64,000 nt of DNA from Salinisphaera japonica YTM-1 (GTDB taxonomy: Bacteria > Pseudomonadota > Gammaproteobacteria > Nevskiales > Salinisphaeraceae), in assembly GCF_003788585.1 (NCBI RefSeq), contig NZ_AYKG01000004.1:1-64000 (forward strand), written 5' to 3'. Each line of letters starts with the position of its first letter. Within the stretch, counting starts at the first letter, position 1. Position numbers and translations under genes: made by a program. Shown piece after piece: positions 39,285-44,841 of the stretch. The notes under the pieces were generated by a model, which worked only from the letters and a program-made list of their open reading frames with translations, did not search any database and was not told where the DNA came from.

Positions 39285-41093
39285 TCATTCCGTCTGTAGC
39301 AATGTGATCGCCGCGTTCGGCTTTGGTAGATTCACGCCGAGCGACCCAGCGGCATCCGGAATCAGAATCACCTTCAGCAGAGACTGTTTCCGGCTGCCTG
39401 TTGCCCGGCATGTCCAGATGTTTTCGTCGTTGGGTGTCTTCCGGTGTAGTCTCAGCTTCTGAAACCGCTTTTGTGCGTGGCTCCAATTCGCTGAGTCAAA
39501 ATCGCGGAATATCCGCGGTGAGACTAGCGCTAAACCTTCCGGCACGACATGGATCCGCGCCTGGGCGGTGTTGATTGGTACCGATTCAAGCTCGATCGAC
39601 TGTTTTAGCCAGGCGAGGAATCGCTCGCCCGCATCCTCGCTGGAATCCATGCCGTCGACGTGGCCATCACCCTGATGCGGTTGTGGGTCTGATTCAGGAG
39701 CCGACGAGCTAGGTTCTGTAGCAGCGGCGTCCTCGACCGCCGAATTAGCCTCAATGTTGAACGGTAAAGGTAACTCATCTAGTGCGTCCTCATTACTCGC
39801 GTTGCTTACCGCAGTCGATTGATTGCCAACATCGCCGTGCGGTGATGAGGCGCCGGTGGCAGGTGCTTTCTGGTTCTCAACCGACGGCTCATTCTGGAGC
39901 GATGTCTCGCTGGGCTTTGTCTTTTGCTGATCGGCCATGACGGACTCGACAGATCCATCCATAACGACGGGTCGACGGGACGAGTCTGGCCAAATCTGGT
40001 CTGCCTGAAATCGAAGGCACGTCAGTTGCTTTTGCCAATCGGCGATTGTGATCGAGCAGAGCCAGACTGCGCGGTCTTCGTTGGGAACCAATAGACCGTG
40101 CTGTTGCAACTCGTCCATAAGCCGATCATTCCGTGTCGGGATGCCGGTCTGGCCTTCCTCGATCAGATGAGTGCGGAGCTTGTCGAGTGTGGTCTTGGAC
40201 ACCAGCCAAAGCGTGTCGCCGTCGAGATAGGCCGCCGCGCCGCGACGGTTCATCGGCAATTCGCCGTTATCCAGCAGATAACGCAGACCAGTGATCAGGC
40301 GCTCAACAAGCGGCTTGGCCTTGGCTGTCGGCAGTTGCACGTTCTTGCGGCCACTGAGGTTGCGTGCGACCGACAAGCCATCCGCCTTACCCACGATTTC
40401 ACCGATGGCGCCGGCGTCGGTGAGATCACCCTGAATGGCCGCGAGCCAGTTATGTAGTGCGCTCTGATCGCCCGCGATCCACCGTAGTCCTTCGGTTGGC
40501 ATGAGATGGTGCGCCAGCAGCGGCGGGATCCGCTCATGGTGGCGATAGACACGCTTCGGATTGAAGTCGATGGAATACGTTGCCCCGATCGGCATCGACC
40601 CGTGAACCGGCGACCAAGCGCTGCGCCGGCCATATGTTCCCTCGTAAAGCGTGATGCACTGATCCGTGACCGGTTTACCGAGATCGTGGAGCAGGGCGGC
40701 GGTAACGCAGGCATACGTCCACAGATCCTGCACTCGAGATTGAACCTCCGGGGCTTCGCCGCGCGGGAGGATGACGCCCTGTTTCAGATCCAAGGTGTGG
40801 CGCACGACTTCGATACCGTGCTGTAGCAGCCCACCAACGCCCCCGTGATGATGGGATTCCGACGCCGGAAGGCGCTGAACCAGGGCCGCATAATTATCGA
40901 AGACCGCTTGGTACAGAGATCGCCAATGTTCAGCCGGCACGCCGGCGCGGGCACGGATCGCTGCGAGCTCGCCTTTAAACGGGGCGAGCAATTCCGATGA
41001 CGCTAGAACTTTGAAACGATGGCGTTCGGGGCCATCGGCCGTTCCAGCGTCCTCGCTGGGGCGCAGCCATTTCTTGAAACGCGAAACGATCAT
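39285..41093 (-). CDS. MobH-type relaxase (TraI_2 family)
   Basis: A 602-residue relaxase of the HD-hydrolase-like MobH class, as in SXT/R391 and clc-like elements. It would nick oriT and pilot DNA in conjugation. The His cluster HHHGGVGGLLQHGIEV (81-96) and the ALLHDLGKP motif (133-141) are the predicted metal site. Residues about 380-480 form a Ser/Pro/Glu-rich linker, and the end (about 485-600) fits the TraI_2 C-terminal DNA-binding domain. No coupling protein or type IV secretion gene is next to it, so the element looks incomplete here. Confidence 0.85.
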   Translation of the reverse strand: MIVSRFKKWLRPSEDAGTADGPERHRFKVLASSELLAPFKGELAAIRARAGVPAEHWRSLYQAVFDNYAALVQRLPASESHHHGGVGGLLQHGIEVVRHTLDLKQGVILPRGEAPEVQSRVQDLWTYACVTAALLHDLGKPVTDQCITLYEGTYGRRSAWSPVHGSMPIGATYSIDFNPKRVYRHHERIPPLLAHHLMPTEGLRWIAGDQSALHNWLAAIQGDLTDAGAIGEIVGKADGLSVARNLSGRKNVQLPTAKAKPLVERLITGLRYLLDNGELPMNRRGAAAYLDGDTLWLVSKTTLDKLRTHLIEEGQTGIPTRNDRLMDELQQHGLLVPNEDRAVWLCSITIADWQKQLTCLRFQADQIWPDSSRRPVVMDGSVESVMADQQKTKPSETSLQNEPSVENQKAPATGASSPHGDVGNQSTAVSNASNEDALDELPLPFNIEANSAVEDAAATEPSSSAPESDPQPHQGDGHVDGMDSSEDAGERFLAWLKQSIELESVPINTAQARIHVVPEGLALVSPRIFRDFDSANWSHAQKRFQKLRLHRKTPNDENIWTCRATGSRKQSLLKVILIPDAAGSLGVNLPKPNAAITLLQTE

Positions 41094-41714
41094 GATGAGC
41101 GATCATGCTGGATCGGACCGGGTTCTGGGTGCAATAAATTCACTCGGGCACCGAGTGAATTTATACCCTTTCGCCCTTTCAACGGGCTCTATAGCGACCT
41201 TTGACCGGGTAAGCCCATTACCATTGAAAAACCTATTCCATTCGGCCCTTTGCACCAGCCCTTCGGCCCTTCGCCGTCACCGCTGTTGCAACGTGAAAGG
41301 CCGCGCATCGGCGCGGCCTGGGTGACTACCGTATTGAGCGTGTTGCTCGCGACGCGCCGCACCGTGAAAGCGCGCATCGCCTGATTGGAGGAGTGCCCCA
41401 AGGCTATGATATCGGCCTCGCCGTCAGTAAGGCCCGGTCATGCGGGTTCGGGATCGGGGCGTCGGAACCTGATTCATCTTTGGGCACGGATTACCGCACA
41501 AAGGGGCGCCGTCAACTTCCGGAGACGGGCAGCCGGCGTGGTCAAGGAAGGCCGTGGCCTTCCCGTGATCGGCTCGGAAGCCGGCCCTGGGAAGGCCACG
41601 GCGCAACCACGCCTGAATCAGCTAAAAGAGGGGCGCCAGTACACACCTGGCGCTATGTGAAGCGTTCCCGGCTGTCGATGGGCTGAGATTGAGCGTCTGT
41701 GCCCACCGAGAACG
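41094..41714. other. Gene-free region upstream of the relaxase
   Basis: No gene is supported. It contains a 31-bp palindrome (listed separately), repeated CTTCGGCCCTT words around 41240-41275, a GC hairpin AGGCCGCG/CGCGGCCT at about 41297-41318, and a 14-bp inverted repeat GCCGTGGCCTTCCC at 41551-41564 and 41589-41602. In a MobH element this is a plausible place for oriT, but no nic site was recognised. Confidence 0.45.
41134..41164. promoter_or_regulatory. Perfect 31-bp palindrome before the relaxase gene
   Basis: ATAAATTCACTCGG, spacer GCA, then CCGAGTGAATTTAT: 14-bp perfect arms, 41 bp upstream of the relaxase start. Its symmetry suggests a dimeric repressor operator; an oriT hairpin is the other possibility. 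Confidence 0.55.
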
Positions 41715-41716
41715 CA

Positions 41717-41803
41717 GGATCGGATCCTCGAAAGGACACTCCGTCTCACGATCCGAGCGGAGTTTGCTGCCGAAGCAGCAAGGGCCGTTGATAACCGCAA
41801 CGG
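41717..41803 (+). ncRNA. Pseudoknot motif, copy A
   Basis: GGATCG at 41717-41722 pairs with CGATCC at 41749-41754. Within that loop, ACTCCG at 41738-41743 pairs with CGGAGT at 41758-41763, making an H-type pseudoknot. A mini-hairpin CCT-CGAA-AGG lies at 41726-41735, an extra hairpin GCTGCCGAAGCAGC at 41766-41779, and a last stem CCGTTG/CAACGG at 41785-41803. Copy B at 43641 keeps the fold with compensated changes. It may be a structured RNA or a folded single-stranded DNA signal. The GNRA-like CGAAA on the plus strand suggests that orientation, opposite to the genes around it. Confidence 0.7.
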
Positions 41804-41877
41804 TACGGATGAAATCGTTGCTGCTTATACTCGCATGATTCCATTACGCGAGTCATTCCCGGTAAAGTGCGATGAAC

Positions 41878-41906
41878 CGAAAAAAAGCCCCGCGTTGTGC
41901 GGGGCT
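41878..41906 (-). terminator. Intrinsic terminator of ardC
   Basis: Stem AGCCCCGC/GCGGGGCT followed on the minus strand by a run of seven T. It lies 9 bp past the ardC stop. Confidence 0.9.
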
Positions 41907-41914
41907 GTGTGGGT

Positions 41915-42802
41915 TCAGGCCGTTTTGGGCGTTTCCTGTGTCTGCAGGTGGCCAATCAGCCATTGATAGGCGGTCTCGGCTTGAGCCGCCGCCCGGAAAA
42001 TCGCTGACTGGTCCTCTTTGAGGATACTGAGCCAGTAATCGATATAGCCCGCGCTATCCTCGAAGGTCTGGCCGTGCAGGCCGAGCGCTGACATCGCATA
42101 AGTGGCTGTAATCTCGGCGATAAGCTCCTCGAACGCGTAAGCGCCCTTGCGAACAGTGGTCTCGTACTTAGGTCGATTGCAGCGATCCCGCGTCTTGGTG
42201 GCGTGGGCCAGTTCATGAAGAACGGTGACGCTGTAATCCACCGCCGAACTGAACCGATCGCGGTCGGGCATCGCAATGATGTCCGTATTCGGTTGATAGC
42301 AGGCCCGTGTGCCGCCGTGCAGAACGGTAATCCCAATGGCATTAACGATCCGCTCGACCGCCTCGATTGGCTCGAAACCGAACCGCGGTCGCGGATCCGG
42401 GGCTTCGAGGCCGTCGATCTGATCGAGATTGAAGACATTGAAGTATCGCAGAATACGAATCTTTTCTGTGACAGCCTCGCCGTCTGCGTCGACTTCGTCG
42501 GTCTCTTTCTCGATGGCCTTGTAGAAAACAGCCGGTGTGCTGTGCTCATCCTTGCGAACCTGACCGCCCAGCTTCTGGGCCTGTCGGTAGGTGAGCCAGT
42601 GGCCGGTGCTGTACTTCTGATCCAGCTGCATCGCCCATAGGATGGCCACGTTGATGCCGTGGTAGTCATCGCCCGTGGACAGATTGACCGGGATGTTGAA
42701 TGTCTGAGTCTGATCCCAGGGGCAGCGCCAGGGCCGTGTCCCCTGTTCCAGTGCGTGAATGAACTGATCGGTGATCTGTTGCCGAATGTTGGTTTTAGCC
42801 AT
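41915..42802 (-). CDS. ardC: ArdC-family antirestriction protein (ssDNA-binding plus zincin)
   Basis: A 295-residue protein. The N-terminal ArdC/DUF1738 domain (MAKTNIRQQITDQFIHALEQ, about 1-130, with GINVAILW and GHWLTYRQAQKLGGQVRK) binds single-stranded DNA in the family. The C-terminal domain has the zinc-metallopeptidase motif VLHELAHAT and a downstream EELIAEITA. Such proteins protect incoming conjugative DNA from restriction. The start at 42802 is the one that follows a GGAGAAACACC leader; an open frame extends much further upstream but overlaps DUF3577. That leader can fold and hide the ribosome binding site. Confidence 0.9.
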   Translation of the reverse strand: MAKTNIRQQITDQFIHALEQGTRPWRCPWDQTQTFNIPVNLSTGDDYHGINVAILWAMQLDQKYSTGHWLTYRQAQKLGGQVRKDEHSTPAVFYKAIEKETDEVDADGEAVTEKIRILRYFNVFNLDQIDGLEAPDPRPRFGFEPIEAVERIVNAIGITVLHGGTRACYQPNTDIIAMPDRDRFSSAVDYSVTVLHELAHATKTRDRCNRPKYETTVRKGAYAFEELIAEITATYAMSALGLHGQTFEDSAGYIDYWLSILKEDQSAIFRAAAQAETAYQWLIGHLQTQETPKTA

Positions 42803-42834
42803 GGTGTTTCTCCATAAAAAAACGGGGAAACACC
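42803..42834 (-). promoter_or_regulatory. Hairpin hiding the ardC ribosome binding site
   Basis: On the minus strand GGTGTTTCCCC pairs with GGAGAAACACC directly before the ATG (11 pairs, one G-U), around an A/T-rich loop. The GGAG Shine-Dalgarno is in the 3' arm. The same layout precedes DUF3577 at 43539-43567. Confidence 0.75.
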
Positions 42835-42880
42835 GATCCCGCAGGGAACGATGTCCCCCGATGGGATTGAAAGCGAAGTA

Positions 42881-42906
42881 AAAATCGGGACGCGAACGTC
42901 CCGATT
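42881..42906 (-). terminator. Intrinsic terminator of the DUF3577 gene
   Basis: Stem AATCGGGACG/CGTCCCGATT with a CGAA loop; on the minus strand it runs into TTTTT. It lies 12 bp beyond the DUF3577 stop, so ardC needs its own transcription start or read-through. Confidence 0.88.
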
Positions 42907-42917
42907 GGTTTGGCCGA

Positions 42918-43538
42918 TTAGGCCGCGGTAGCAGCTGGCAGACGCCAGACCTTGTCCTGGCCGTCGAAACGATAGCCTGCTTCCTTGAGCGCGGCTTTGC
43001 GCTCCTGGAAGTCGGGATCGTCTTTCGACAGCGCGACTTCGGCCGGCATGCCGTCAGGATCCGACTCGGGCGATTCAGGCGTGGCCGCTTCCGGTTCGGG
43101 GGCGGTCTCGGATCCAGCGTCGCTATTTTGCGATTCCGGTTCCTCGCCGTCGTCGGATTCCGTCTCGGTGCTGTAGACAGTCTCGCCATCGATCTTGATG
43201 AAGCCGATGTAGAGCAGGCGGGCTTTCAGGCTGATGCCTGTCTCGCCGGCACGTTCGCCCTTGGAATAGGTGAACGTGTCGGGATACAGATCTCCGAGCC
43301 GGAAACCGATCAAGACCTTGCGGTCTTGTGCTACGGCATTCTGATACTGCGGGACCAGTTCGATCGCCTGGGCACCGCTGACACGGCAATCAAAACGTGT
43401 GTGATTGACGTTATCTTTGGAACCGTGCAGTGCCGCGATGTCGCAAGCCCAGAACGGCGAACCGTTCTTGGGGCGAACTTCGCGGACGCGGTTCAGATAG
43501 CCGATACCCTGCGTGTGAAGATCGAAATATTCAGACAT
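42918..43538 (-). CDS. DUF3577 (STY4534-type) ICE protein
   Basis: A 206-residue protein. The first 120 residues (EYFDLHTQGIGYLNRVREV, FWACDIAALHG, FDCRVSGAQA) match the DUF3577/STY4534 family found in integrative elements and thought to act in element replication or ssDNA handling. A long acidic Glu/Pro/Ser linker (about 125-170) leads to a short C-terminal domain (FQERKAALKEAGYRFDGQDKVWRLP). The start at 43538 follows the GGAGAAACACC leader. Direct biochemical function is not established. Confidence 0.82.
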   Translation of the reverse strand: MSEYFDLHTQGIGYLNRVREVRPKNGSPFWACDIAALHGSKDNVNHTRFDCRVSGAQAIELVPQYQNAVAQDRKVLIGFRLGDLYPDTFTYSKGERAGETGISLKARLLYIGFIKIDGETVYSTETESDDGEEPESQNSDAGSETAPEPEAATPESPESDPDGMPAEVALSKDDPDFQERKAALKEAGYRFDGQDKVWRLPAATAA

Positions 43539-43567
43539 GGTGTTTCTCCTGGAATAGGGGATACACC
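43539..43567 (-). promoter_or_regulatory. Hairpin hiding the DUF3577 ribosome binding site
   Basis: On the minus strand GGTGTATCCCC pairs with GGAGAAACACC next to the ATG, with one T-T mismatch. The arm next to the start is identical to that before ardC, while the distal arm differs but still pairs. Confidence 0.75.
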
Positions 43568-43640
43568 ACACCCTCATTGGGGATGATGATCCCCAAGAGT
43601 GGGTTGGAAGATGCCGCAAAAGCAGCAGGTTTATAAGAAT

Positions 43641-43710
43641 GGATCGAACCTCGAAAGGCGTCTCTGTTCGCGATCCGGAGAGACTTCAAGGGCCGCTATC
43701 AACCTAGCGG
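43641..43710 (+). ncRNA. Pseudoknot motif, copy B
   Basis: GGATCG 43641-43646 pairs with CGATCC 43671-43676; GTCTCT 43660-43665 pairs with AGAGAC 43679-43684; CCTCGAAAGG at 43649-43658 is conserved; the last stem is CCGCTA 43693-43698 with TAGCGG 43705-43710. Compared with copy A, five of six pairs in the second stem and two in the third are changed on both sides. It lies about 100 bp upstream of the DUF3577 start. The context (antirestriction and element replication genes) recalls the published STAXI RNA class, but I could not compare it with that consensus. Confidence 0.72.
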
Positions 43711-43797
43711 TAGGGTTTCAGGTGTAAGGCAACCAGATTAGAAACGTTCCGTCAAGCGAAGGCCGCCATGGCAGCGCACGTCAGATTGATGCGATCG

Positions 43798-44841
43798 CTA
43801 TAAATGGGCAAGTTGCTCTGAAATTCGGTTGCGTAACGCTTCATTGATACGGCCCGGCACCGCGTCTGCGCCTAGCTCAATGACTCGGTCACCGACCGTC
43901 TGCTGCTTTTTGGCAATATCGAGCAGCAAAGCACAAAGATCGGTGAAGCCGGCGTCGCGAAGAACATCTGCGGCGCGCCGTGCGCGCTGGTCGCTGCGCG
44001 GTAGAAAAATAGCGCTGGCAGGACCGAACCGGTCTGGCAAGGGAATCCAGTAGAAGGCGGCGCCAAACGGCCTCATGGCATCGATGAAAACGCATTCGGA
44101 GTTTGCTTCGGCGTGAGCAGCGAATATGTCGAATTCGTCGCTCAGGGCTTCGATTGCGAAGCTGTTCAGGGAGGTCTGATGAATCTCCGCTTCGATAATC
44201 ACAGGGAGATCGAAGGAGCGTGAGAGATATTGGGCTACAGCAAAATGATGGCTACCGCCAACGTTCGATAGAAAAACCCGACCGTCCCAAGCATAGGACG
44301 ACAAATGATCAGCGGGATTCTCGCAGTGGATGATGCGAATTTCATCGTGGGCCAGCGCTCGGTAGAACGCAGTTTCATCGGCTTCGCCAAGTTCTTTCTT
44401 GCATTCATGGCGTACAAAGTCGGTCAGACAATCATATTTTTCTAAGGGTCCTTTAGAGCAGCTCAGACCATCAATATCGCGTATATCAATGGCCACTTGC
44501 CGCTTGGTAGTCGACGCGAAATCCAGAAGTGGCTGACACGTTCGTCGGTGTCCTCGGTAATCGCCAAATGAGTCACGAGCCCAGCCTGTAAGTAGGCCAT
44601 CTTCGCGGCGTGGAAACATGAACACGGGCCATTGACCGAATCGATGCCATGGGGCTACCAAAGTCTCGTCGATACCGCTGGATGCAACACTGATAGCGGG
44701 CACGTCATCGGCCGGAAAATGCTCGGTCCACGCCGTCAGACGAGCAGGTGTACCCAACCAGTCATGAAATGATAACCACGCCTCATCGCGCATCGAGCGC
44801 CAATAGCCGGCCCACGTTTTGTTGCCGATTAACTCACTCAT
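43798..44841 (-). CDS. 347-aa protein of unknown function in the element remnant
   Basis: I do not recognise this family with confidence. It is soluble, with a central GRVFLSNVGGSHHFAVAQYL segment whose Gly-Ser-His-His could be catalytic, and a mixed alpha/beta pattern. No signal peptide or membrane segment is seen. It overlaps by eight bases a small coiled-coil gene, which itself follows an RHH gene, so the three are one operon. The operon could be an accessory or toxin-antitoxin-like cargo unit; that is inference. Confidence 0.7.
   Translation of the reverse strand: MSELIGNKTWAGYWRSMRDEAWLSFHDWLGTPARLTAWTEHFPADDVPAISVASSGIDETLVAPWHRFGQWPVFMFPRREDGLLTGWARDSFGDYRGHRRTCQPLLDFASTTKRQVAIDIRDIDGLSCSKGPLEKYDCLTDFVRHECKKELGEADETAFYRALAHDEIRIIHCENPADHLSSYAWDGRVFLSNVGGSHHFAVAQYLSRSFDLPVIIEAEIHQTSLNSFAIEALSDEFDIFAAHAEANSECVFIDAMRPFGAAFYWIPLPDRFGPASAIFLPRSDQRARRAADVLRDAGFTDLCALLLDIAKKQQTVGDRVIELGADAVPGRINEALRNRISEQLAHL

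Follow-up and report, generated by a model that had tools for sequence, protein, structure and literature searches.

We analysed a 64,000-nucleotide stretch of Salinisphaera japonica YTM-1 (contig NZ_AYKG01000004.1, positions 1 to 64,000; hereafter 'the window') that contains two copies, A and B, of an RNA-like pseudoknot motif beside the genes for ArdC and a DUF3577 protein. A first-pass annotation had described both copies and named their stems; sequence inspection located them where it had placed them, with every named stem present, and a search of the whole 3.26 Mb genome with the exact pattern returned these two copies only (0 matches with a reversed control pattern). Domain searches agree with the annotation that the setting, with ArdC and DUF3577, is a conjugative element. 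As detailed below, we consider it probable that the motif belongs to a mobile family of cis-acting 5′ leader RNAs that stand before many genes of SPI-7/STY4534-like islands, probably acting in the mRNA. The motif and its neighbouring genes are as follows, with bit scores from R3, one of three covariance models (R1, R2 and R3) used in this work; loci and genomes other than the window carry L and G numbers.

43640–43713, minus strand: copy B, the complete motif (P1, linker GCCCTTGAA, P2/P3 pseudoknot and P4), in the DUF3577 leader; 84.6 bits with R3, copy B being among R3's sequences.
43693–43710, minus strand: copy B P1 hairpin, CCGCTA/TAGCGG, with 4 of 6 pairs changed on both sides.
43679–43684, minus strand: copy B P2 5′ arm, GTCTCT, pairing with AGAGAC at 43660–43665; this pairing is absent from all search models.
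43671–43676, minus strand: copy B P3 5′ arm, GGATCG, pairing with CGATCC at 43641–43646 (alignment).
43649–43658, minus strand: copy B P4 hairpin, CCT-TTCG-AGG (alignment and knot computation).
41716–41806, minus strand: copy A, the same motif with an extra hairpin; 45.6 bits with R3, copy A being among R3's sequences.
41764–41781, minus strand: copy A extra hairpin, TTGCTGC-TTCG-GCAGCAA (sequence and fold).
41758–41763, minus strand: copy A P2 5′ arm, ACTCCG, pairing with CGGAGT at 41738–41743 (family alignment).
41749–41754, minus strand: copy A P3 5′ arm, GGATCG, pairing with CGATCC at 41717–41722 (family alignment).
41726–41735, minus strand: copy A P4 hairpin, CCT-TTCG-AGG (family alignment).
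42918–43538, minus strand: DUF3577 gene, a STY4534 family integrative and conjugative element (ICE) replication protein (Pfam PF12101, 186.9 bits).
41915–42802, minus strand: ardC, with ArdcN and MPTase-PolyVal domains (domain search).
39285–41093, minus strand: TraI_2 relaxase/helicase-like gene, downstream of copy A (domain search).

Read along the minus strand, the motif consists of the P1 hairpin, a GCCCTT linker, the 5′ arm of P2, the 5′ arm of P3 (GGATCG), about 5 nucleotides, the 3′ arm of P2, the P4 hairpin and the 3′ arm of P3 (CGATCC). We use P3 for the stem GGATCG/CGATCC and P4 for CCT..AGG. P2 and P3 are interlocked and form a pseudoknot, with the P4 hairpin (CCT-TTCG-AGG) placed between their 3′ arms in both window copies; the additional C(UUCG)G hairpin of copy A lies between P1 and P2. 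Between the two copies, P2 changes from ACTCCG/CGGAGT (copy A) to GTCTCT/AGAGAC (copy B) with five compensated pairs, and P1 from CCGTTG/CAACGG to CCGCTA/TAGCGG with two, so that the count of seven compensated pairs in the first-pass annotation is correct. Pairing in the two copies is beyond chance, but the fold alone is insufficient, because copy B lies near its shuffles and because a loose pseudoknot descriptor gave many unrelated matches in the window and the other loci and is hence unspecific on its own; no claim here is based on that generic descriptor alone. A switch through an alternative helix (CCCUUGAA/UUUCGAGG, from the minimum-energy fold of copy B) was also considered and dropped, as the copies of locus L099 cannot form that helix (by eye).

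Evidence from the wider family is decisive for the reality of the motif. Model R1 was built from four copies with the P2 pairs omitted and the P2 letters kept as unpaired columns, and R2 likewise lacks the P2 pairs. Among 11 distinct copies from the genus (four of them from R1), 98.7% of 229 cells are paired, with P2 at 98.5%, and both sides have changed at 9 of the 21 pairs, against 0–3 such pairs in slid controls. Four of five covariation measures were never reached in 500 shuffles of these copies; the number of pair types was reached by 356.

The larger family set comprises 36 R2 matches (E ≤0.2) at 17 loci, 10 of these matches being copies used to build R2. P2 and P3 (at least 5 of 6 pairs each) together with the P4 hairpin are found in 35 of the 36, a count in which the placement of P2 was partly free; the exception, L004:9312, fails P2 and was removed before the family alignment was counted. 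That alignment holds 24 distinct cores, with 14 different P2 helices and 6 different P3 helices, and is 98.6% paired (P3 100%) compared with 76.6% when the arms were dealt anew, none of 2000 such deals being as good. When P2 was instead required at fixed spacings of 2 and 5 nucleotides (at least 5 of 6 pairs), it was present in 31 of the 36 matches versus 3.8% of random window places; the matches divide into 9 of 13 genus rows and 22 of 23 rows from outside the genus. The five failures are L004:9312, two rows of the copy A form, L059 (where P2 stands 3 nucleotides before P3) and L104:15182 (wider gaps), while L104:10635 passes in a register other than that of its better helix. Covariation is also seen in P1, P3 and P4. 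The selected, covarying structure that the first-pass annotation had read from two copies is thus borne out at the level of the family. The limit on E-value left outside the set a degenerate copy, L057:7083 (E 0.66), and L104:18563 (E 0.27), whose P2 and P3 are complete; the weak matches L050:10233 and L100:13079 (E 0.84 and 0.99) were kept out of the later set, and L088, L091 and L095, which failed P2 in an alignment where 16 of 19 rows pass, were taken as chance matches.

Within 61 related genomes, R1 gave 12 matches above 70 bits in six genomes, all of the genus to which the window belongs; R1 thus matched in 6 of 14 genomes of the genus (its own included) and in 0 of the 47 other relatives. 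A further copy in the genome of the window itself lies elsewhere, at G000:C68:71051. R2 reached E ≤0.01 in eight of 369 genomes of the class. The P2 test was passed there by the window's own genome and by five others from four families of Gammaproteobacteria (G147, G270, G185, G188 and G285), and was failed by the matches of G131 and G322 and by one match of G285. Among 398 genomes of the phylum R2 matched the window's own genome only, and R3, applied to 20 genomes from the order to which G188 belongs, recovered G188 and one new genome of the same genus, G821. These two islands outside the window's genus carry seven copies each, in each case on one strand. G821 is absent from all models, and all seven of its copies have 12 of 12 standard pairs; its P2 helices form the series GCCTCT/AGAGGC, GCCTCT/AGAGGT and ACCTCT/AGAGGT, the middle member of which is a G.U intermediate on the sense strand. 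The searches were strictly filtered and the genomes sampled, so the spread is a lower bound. Further covarying homologues, the test that the first-pass annotation had itself proposed, were found in six genomes of the genus, five other Gammaproteobacteria and G821.

The copies are dispersed, and the copies of form A at loci L005 and L006 have broken pairs (by eye), as might be seen if they were non-functional repeats spread with a mobile element. We regard this explanation as very improbable, and it is contradicted by the covariation: compensatory changes occur in all four helices, the fold has been retained across five bacterial families, the spacing is nearly constant and a gene mostly lies close behind.

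The structure can be drawn on either strand, and of the two drawings only the minus-strand one has UUCG loops; DUF3577, ardC and the TraI_2 gene have their sense strand there too. The most frequent loop sequence of P4 is TTCG (8 of 24 distinct cores), and the wobbles in P2 and P3 of the 24-core alignment comprise, on the sense strand, six G.U versus two A.C; P4 was excluded from this comparison, its hairpin search having allowed G.U and not A.C. The wobble count favours RNA only mildly, and a strand test of this kind is only suggestive. The UUCG loops favour RNA more than the wobbles do; the same argument is applied to STAXI by Weinberg and colleagues in passages of PMC2864571. Because of the UUCG-type loops and the excess of G.U pairs on the sense strand we take the minus strand as the RNA-like strand. 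The first-pass view of motifs oriented against the genes is not upheld, since the loops and most of the wobble pairs point to the gene strand.

The 3′ end of copy B lies 101 nucleotides before the start codon of DUF3577, and on the minus-strand reading copy B is the 5′ leader of that gene. A promoter-like element precedes it:

43750–43755, minus strand: TTGACG, a −35-like box, 36 nucleotides upstream of copy B (sequence).

TTGACA or TTGACG is found 35–37 nucleotides upstream in 11 of the 11 genus copies of form B examined. By eye, TAT-like boxes often lie 22–24 nucleotides behind TTGACA/G in the genus copies. Copies within one island are all on one strand; a single opposite-strand match in L100 (weak, E 0.99) has none of the family's features and was rejected. 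A start codon follows 26 of the 36 copies at a distance of 67–111 nucleotides, under a rule that calls the first start having at least 45 codons and a sequence like a ribosome-binding site; in a few rows this rule takes an earlier in-frame start or the wrong frame. The genes behind the copies encode DUF3577, DUF3275, DUF932, RadC, a SNF2/DEAD helicase, DUF4942 and a CCDC90-like protein, while 2 of 10 scanned proteins gave no family match. This gene set is of the kind annotated in SPI-7-type conjugative islands (STY4534 being DUF3577). DUF3577 itself stands behind the motif in the window, in other genomes of the genus, in G188 and (by eye) in G821; the DUF3577 family is present in six of seven genus genomes searched, and in G185 the copy is followed by a 31-residue frame whose start resembles DUF3577.

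Copy A has a different context, between ardC and traI, with no called gene for 460 nucleotides behind it. It heads a conserved segment:

41440–41715, minus strand: the segment behind copy A, conserved and apparently noncoding, with GTGGCCTTCCC..GGGAAGGCCAC and GCCCCTTTGTGCG (alignment with islands of other families).

This interval has no minus-strand open reading frame of at least 80 amino acids; plus-strand reading frames are present. The genus, G147/G270, G188 and G821 (L100 5985–6290, L106 2465–2770, L099 18385–18740 and also L116) all have a motif copy at the head of the same segment, whose arms resemble GTGGCCTTCCC..GGGAAGGCCAC, and GCCCCTTTGTGCG is present in six aligned segment sequences. 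The arms of a long hairpin in the segment change together, from TGGCC/GGCCA to TAGCC/GGCTA (by eye). Where the order of copies is visible (G147, G188 and G821), the copy heading the segment is the last of the set. The segment may be a noncoding RNA or a candidate transfer origin (oriT). Directly behind ardC, at 41883–41909 on the minus strand, we noted by eye a terminator-like hairpin with a T-run, and copy A would therefore lie in a separate transcript or in read-through. Also by eye, copies of form A with broken pairs appear to be decaying in genomes of the genus (L005 9711–9801 and L006 1592–1659).

At the end of many leaders stands a hairpin whose 3′ arm contains or touches the ribosome-binding site (RBS). 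Two such regions are found in the window:

43539–43600, minus strand: second part of the DUF3577 leader, a TTGGGG..CCCCAA hairpin and a weaker RBS hairpin, GGTGTATC/GAAACACC (fold).
42803–42860, minus strand: ardC leader, with a hairpin, GGTGTTTCCCCG/TGGAGAAACACC, holding the RBS; 1 of 200 shuffles is as good.

The stretch 43539–43640 folds far beyond its shuffles (z −4.80). Elsewhere the arms vary between leaders and retain complementarity, as in GGTGTTTCTC/GAGAAACACC, GATGCGATCTCC/GGAGATCGCATC and GATGTTTTCTCC/GGAGAAAACATC (by eye). In 17 of 31 leaders, the window ardC leader among them, no more than 10 of 200 shuffles give as good a hairpin, and the best right arm includes the binding-site core in 18 of the 31. 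The RBS hairpin is common to leaders of the copy A/B family, to the window ardC leader and to the leaders of two RNA families discussed below, radC and STAXI (window, L049–L059, L068–L084 and L099–L105).

The recurrence of this hairpin across leaders bears on whether the motif acts on translation or, as an attenuator or processive antitermination element, on transcription. The cis-acting antitermination RNAs HK022 put and EAR lie close behind a promoter, and the genus copies likewise lie close behind a promoter-like box; the 460 nucleotides without a called gene behind copy A also fit an effect on transcription. With RBS hairpins recurring, however, and no U-run after the 3′ arm of P3 in the copies examined (by eye), we think a purely transcriptional role rather unlikely.

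A further alternative is that the motif acts as single-stranded DNA (ssDNA): the transferred strand would fold on entering the recipient and provide a single-strand promoter, a primer site or a protein site for early genes, in the manner of Frpo and ssi elements. The relaxase, ArdC and other island genes provide a suitable setting, plausibly a leading region, and passages of PMC11541004 describe Frpo-type single-strand promoters in plasmid leading regions. DUF3577 and ardC point at the conserved segment beside traI, as would be expected if that segment were oriT, TTGACA is conserved upstream of the motif, and copy A, folded as DNA, outdoes its shuffled versions on either strand (z −4.67 and −3.88). 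Frpo and ssi resemble the motif in being structured and in lying close to leading-region genes of conjugative elements; they differ in acting in the transferred strand. Frpo-type promoters have their −35 and −10 boxes inside a hairpin of that strand. In the copies considered here the −35-like box (TTGACA) precedes the knot and is not part of it. Copy B folded as DNA is no better than shuffles (z −1.08 and −1.10), RBS hairpins lie behind many copies, and the UUCG-type loops speak for RNA, as do the G.U pairs of the sense strand. Of the two modes of action left open by the first-pass annotation, RNA thus gains support and ssDNA is the less likely; we judge the latter an unlikely account of the family.

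We therefore return to a leader RNA acting in the mRNA as the probable role of the motif. Under this model, transcription would begin at or just before P1, from the TTGACA box, and the pseudoknot would serve as a sensing or protein-binding domain. Formation of the knot might alter access to the RBS, or transcription through the leader, and a single signal, possibly an island-encoded protein, could switch the set of DNA-handling genes jointly, for example around transfer; copy B would then be the control leader of DUF3577.

Several observations weigh against this model. The folding energy of copy B (computed as RNA with pseudoknots ignored) is barely beyond that of shuffles (z −1.49), and its minimum-energy fold keeps P1 and P2 but has a linker helix where P3 and P4 would be. 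The G.U excess, 6 to 2, is a small one, and the sense strand was the one used in fitting P3. At 17 nucleotides behind the conserved TTGACA of the genus the −10 boxes are poor (by eye). Ten of the 36 copies have no called start at 67–111 nucleotides, and four of these (window copy A, L100:6287, L106:2397 and L099:18320) head the apparently noncoding segment. The RBS hairpin of DUF3577 in the window is matched by 38 of 200 shuffles and is not significant, 14 of the 31 leaders fail the mark of 10 in 200, and the window ardC leader has no pseudoknot of the copy A/B family (of which the genome has three copies only). Finally, R1 and R3 gave no match at the 15 radC and 2 STAXI sites in the 17 DUF3577 loci of other elements considered below.

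If an island-wide switch of this kind does operate, it would add an RNA layer to the control of conjugative islands. The 74-nucleotide unit with its one pseudoknot is a convenient object for biochemical work. Descriptions of STAXI and radC RNA date from 2010, and the literature passages that a limited search found leave their roles unexplained. With a third family, compact and made of one knot, in the same slot ahead of this orthologous gene, the separate curiosities become a single question, namely what the knot before DUF3577 and other island genes senses. Elsewhere in the window, at 205–392 on the plus strand, lies a tandem glycine riboswitch (Rfam RF00504, 61.0 and 51.6 bits).

The first-pass annotation had suggested that the motif might belong to the STAXI class or be new. 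In Rfam 15 no family matches the motif at gathering scores, and a search of 41500–43800 at E ≤10 gave 11 matches, all far under gathering scores and none of them STAXI or radC; mir-4879, Hrs10 and EAV_LTH, which overlap copy A at this level, were taken as chance. STAXI (RF01728, gathering score 40.5) has no match in the window at gathering and none at E ≤10 in 41500–43800, and the score for radC (RF01754, gathering score 40) is not reached in the window. STAXI was found in 0 of four relatives' genomes, in a search whose positive control was silent everywhere, and radC exceeded the cut-off in 0 of five genus genomes. Searches for STAXI in 369 and for radC in 185 genomes of the class gave 0 each, but with 0 of 14 controls recovered these have no bearing on absence. 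No Rfam family matched at gathering in L099 8900–19100 or in L100, Rfam lists no clan for STAXI or radC, and two leaders and the copy A segment gave no match to plasmids with blastn.

Plasmid records (62 with DUF3577 were found) supplied 17 further loci of this gene, all from other elements. Rfam places STAXI immediately before DUF3577 at two of them (L070 and L072) and radC there at four (L068, L071, L073 and L083), with more radC copies before other genes; in the other 11 of the 17 leaders neither is directly upstream. The descriptor knot surpasses every one of 40 shuffles in 10 of the 17 leaders, the seven that fail being L070, L072, L075, L080, L081, L082 and L084, and the best descriptor knot in L068, L071, L073 and L083 is the second radC knot. 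The leaders of ICEHin1056 (L076), Klebsiella (L069) and Nitrogeniibacter (L079) have the same knot layout without a STAXI or radC match. By eye, the DUF3577 leaders of L081, L082 and L084 (Vibrio, Shewanella) share CACACGG..TTAAAT..GTGTCGCG and a wider gap between P2 and P3, and seem to form another branch.

Both the first radC pseudoknot and the STAXI unit have their arms in the same order as the motif, P2-N2-P3-N5-P2′-P4(UUCG)-P3′. Like the motif, radC RNA forms the 5′ leader of conjugative-island genes that include DUF3577, and begins with a P1 hairpin followed by a P2/P3 pseudoknot with P4 between P2′ and P3′. Its spacings are 0–2, 3–5, 0–2 and 0–1, resembling those of the copy A/B family, and P3 is often GGATC/GATCC or GATC/GATC (GGATC/GATCC, GGGTC/GACCC and CGGTC/GACCG are examples from the first knot); an RBS hairpin lies downstream in several radC leaders. 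The two families differ in that radC has two pseudoknots, each found by knot computation in 14 of 15 copies, whereas the second was not found with copy A, with copy B or in the 200 nucleotides behind copy A (the scan behind copy B covered about 20 nucleotides; in a separate scan of a 270-nucleotide leader the known knot was best). Passages of PMC7657543 place radC among families whose database structure lacks covariation-supported pairs.

STAXI likewise consists of a pseudoknot unit with a UUCG hairpin in the equal place, with spacings of 1–2, 5, 0 and 0 in two STAXI copies, and the STAXI consensus loop recurs in copy A as TGAGA (by eye); the units of L070 and L072 each have two G.U pairs in P3. 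Its position is also similar: STAXI occurs in the neighbourhood of antirestriction, integrase, topoisomerase or ssb genes, between topB and DUF3577 in enterobacterial elements (L070 and L072), and in the window ardC lies near the motif; STAXI has been seen by RNA-seq beside topB in Pectobacterium (PMC4710047). It differs in being repeated in tandem, two or three times, as reported from Enterobacteriales in passages of PMC2864571, whereas here there is one knot per copy and one model match per leader. The first-pass suggestion thus holds for fold and position; membership of STAXI is not supported, with no match even at E 10 and no tandem repeats.

Because R1 and R3 are blind to the radC and STAXI sites, we do not claim common descent, and the likeness is limited to the kind of structure and its place. 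The motif is best read as a third family of the STAXI/radC kind by fold and place, with a single pseudoknot and absent from Rfam 15. More tentatively, we can imagine, without holding it to be the likelier case, that STAXI, radC, the copy A/B family and the unnamed leaders (for example of ICEHin1056 and of Vibrio or Nitrogeniibacter plasmids) make up one superfamily that defines a conjugative-island regulon, with the same knot before every gene set answering a single island-encoded or transfer-linked signal and opening the RBS hairpin on arrival in, or departure for, a new cell.

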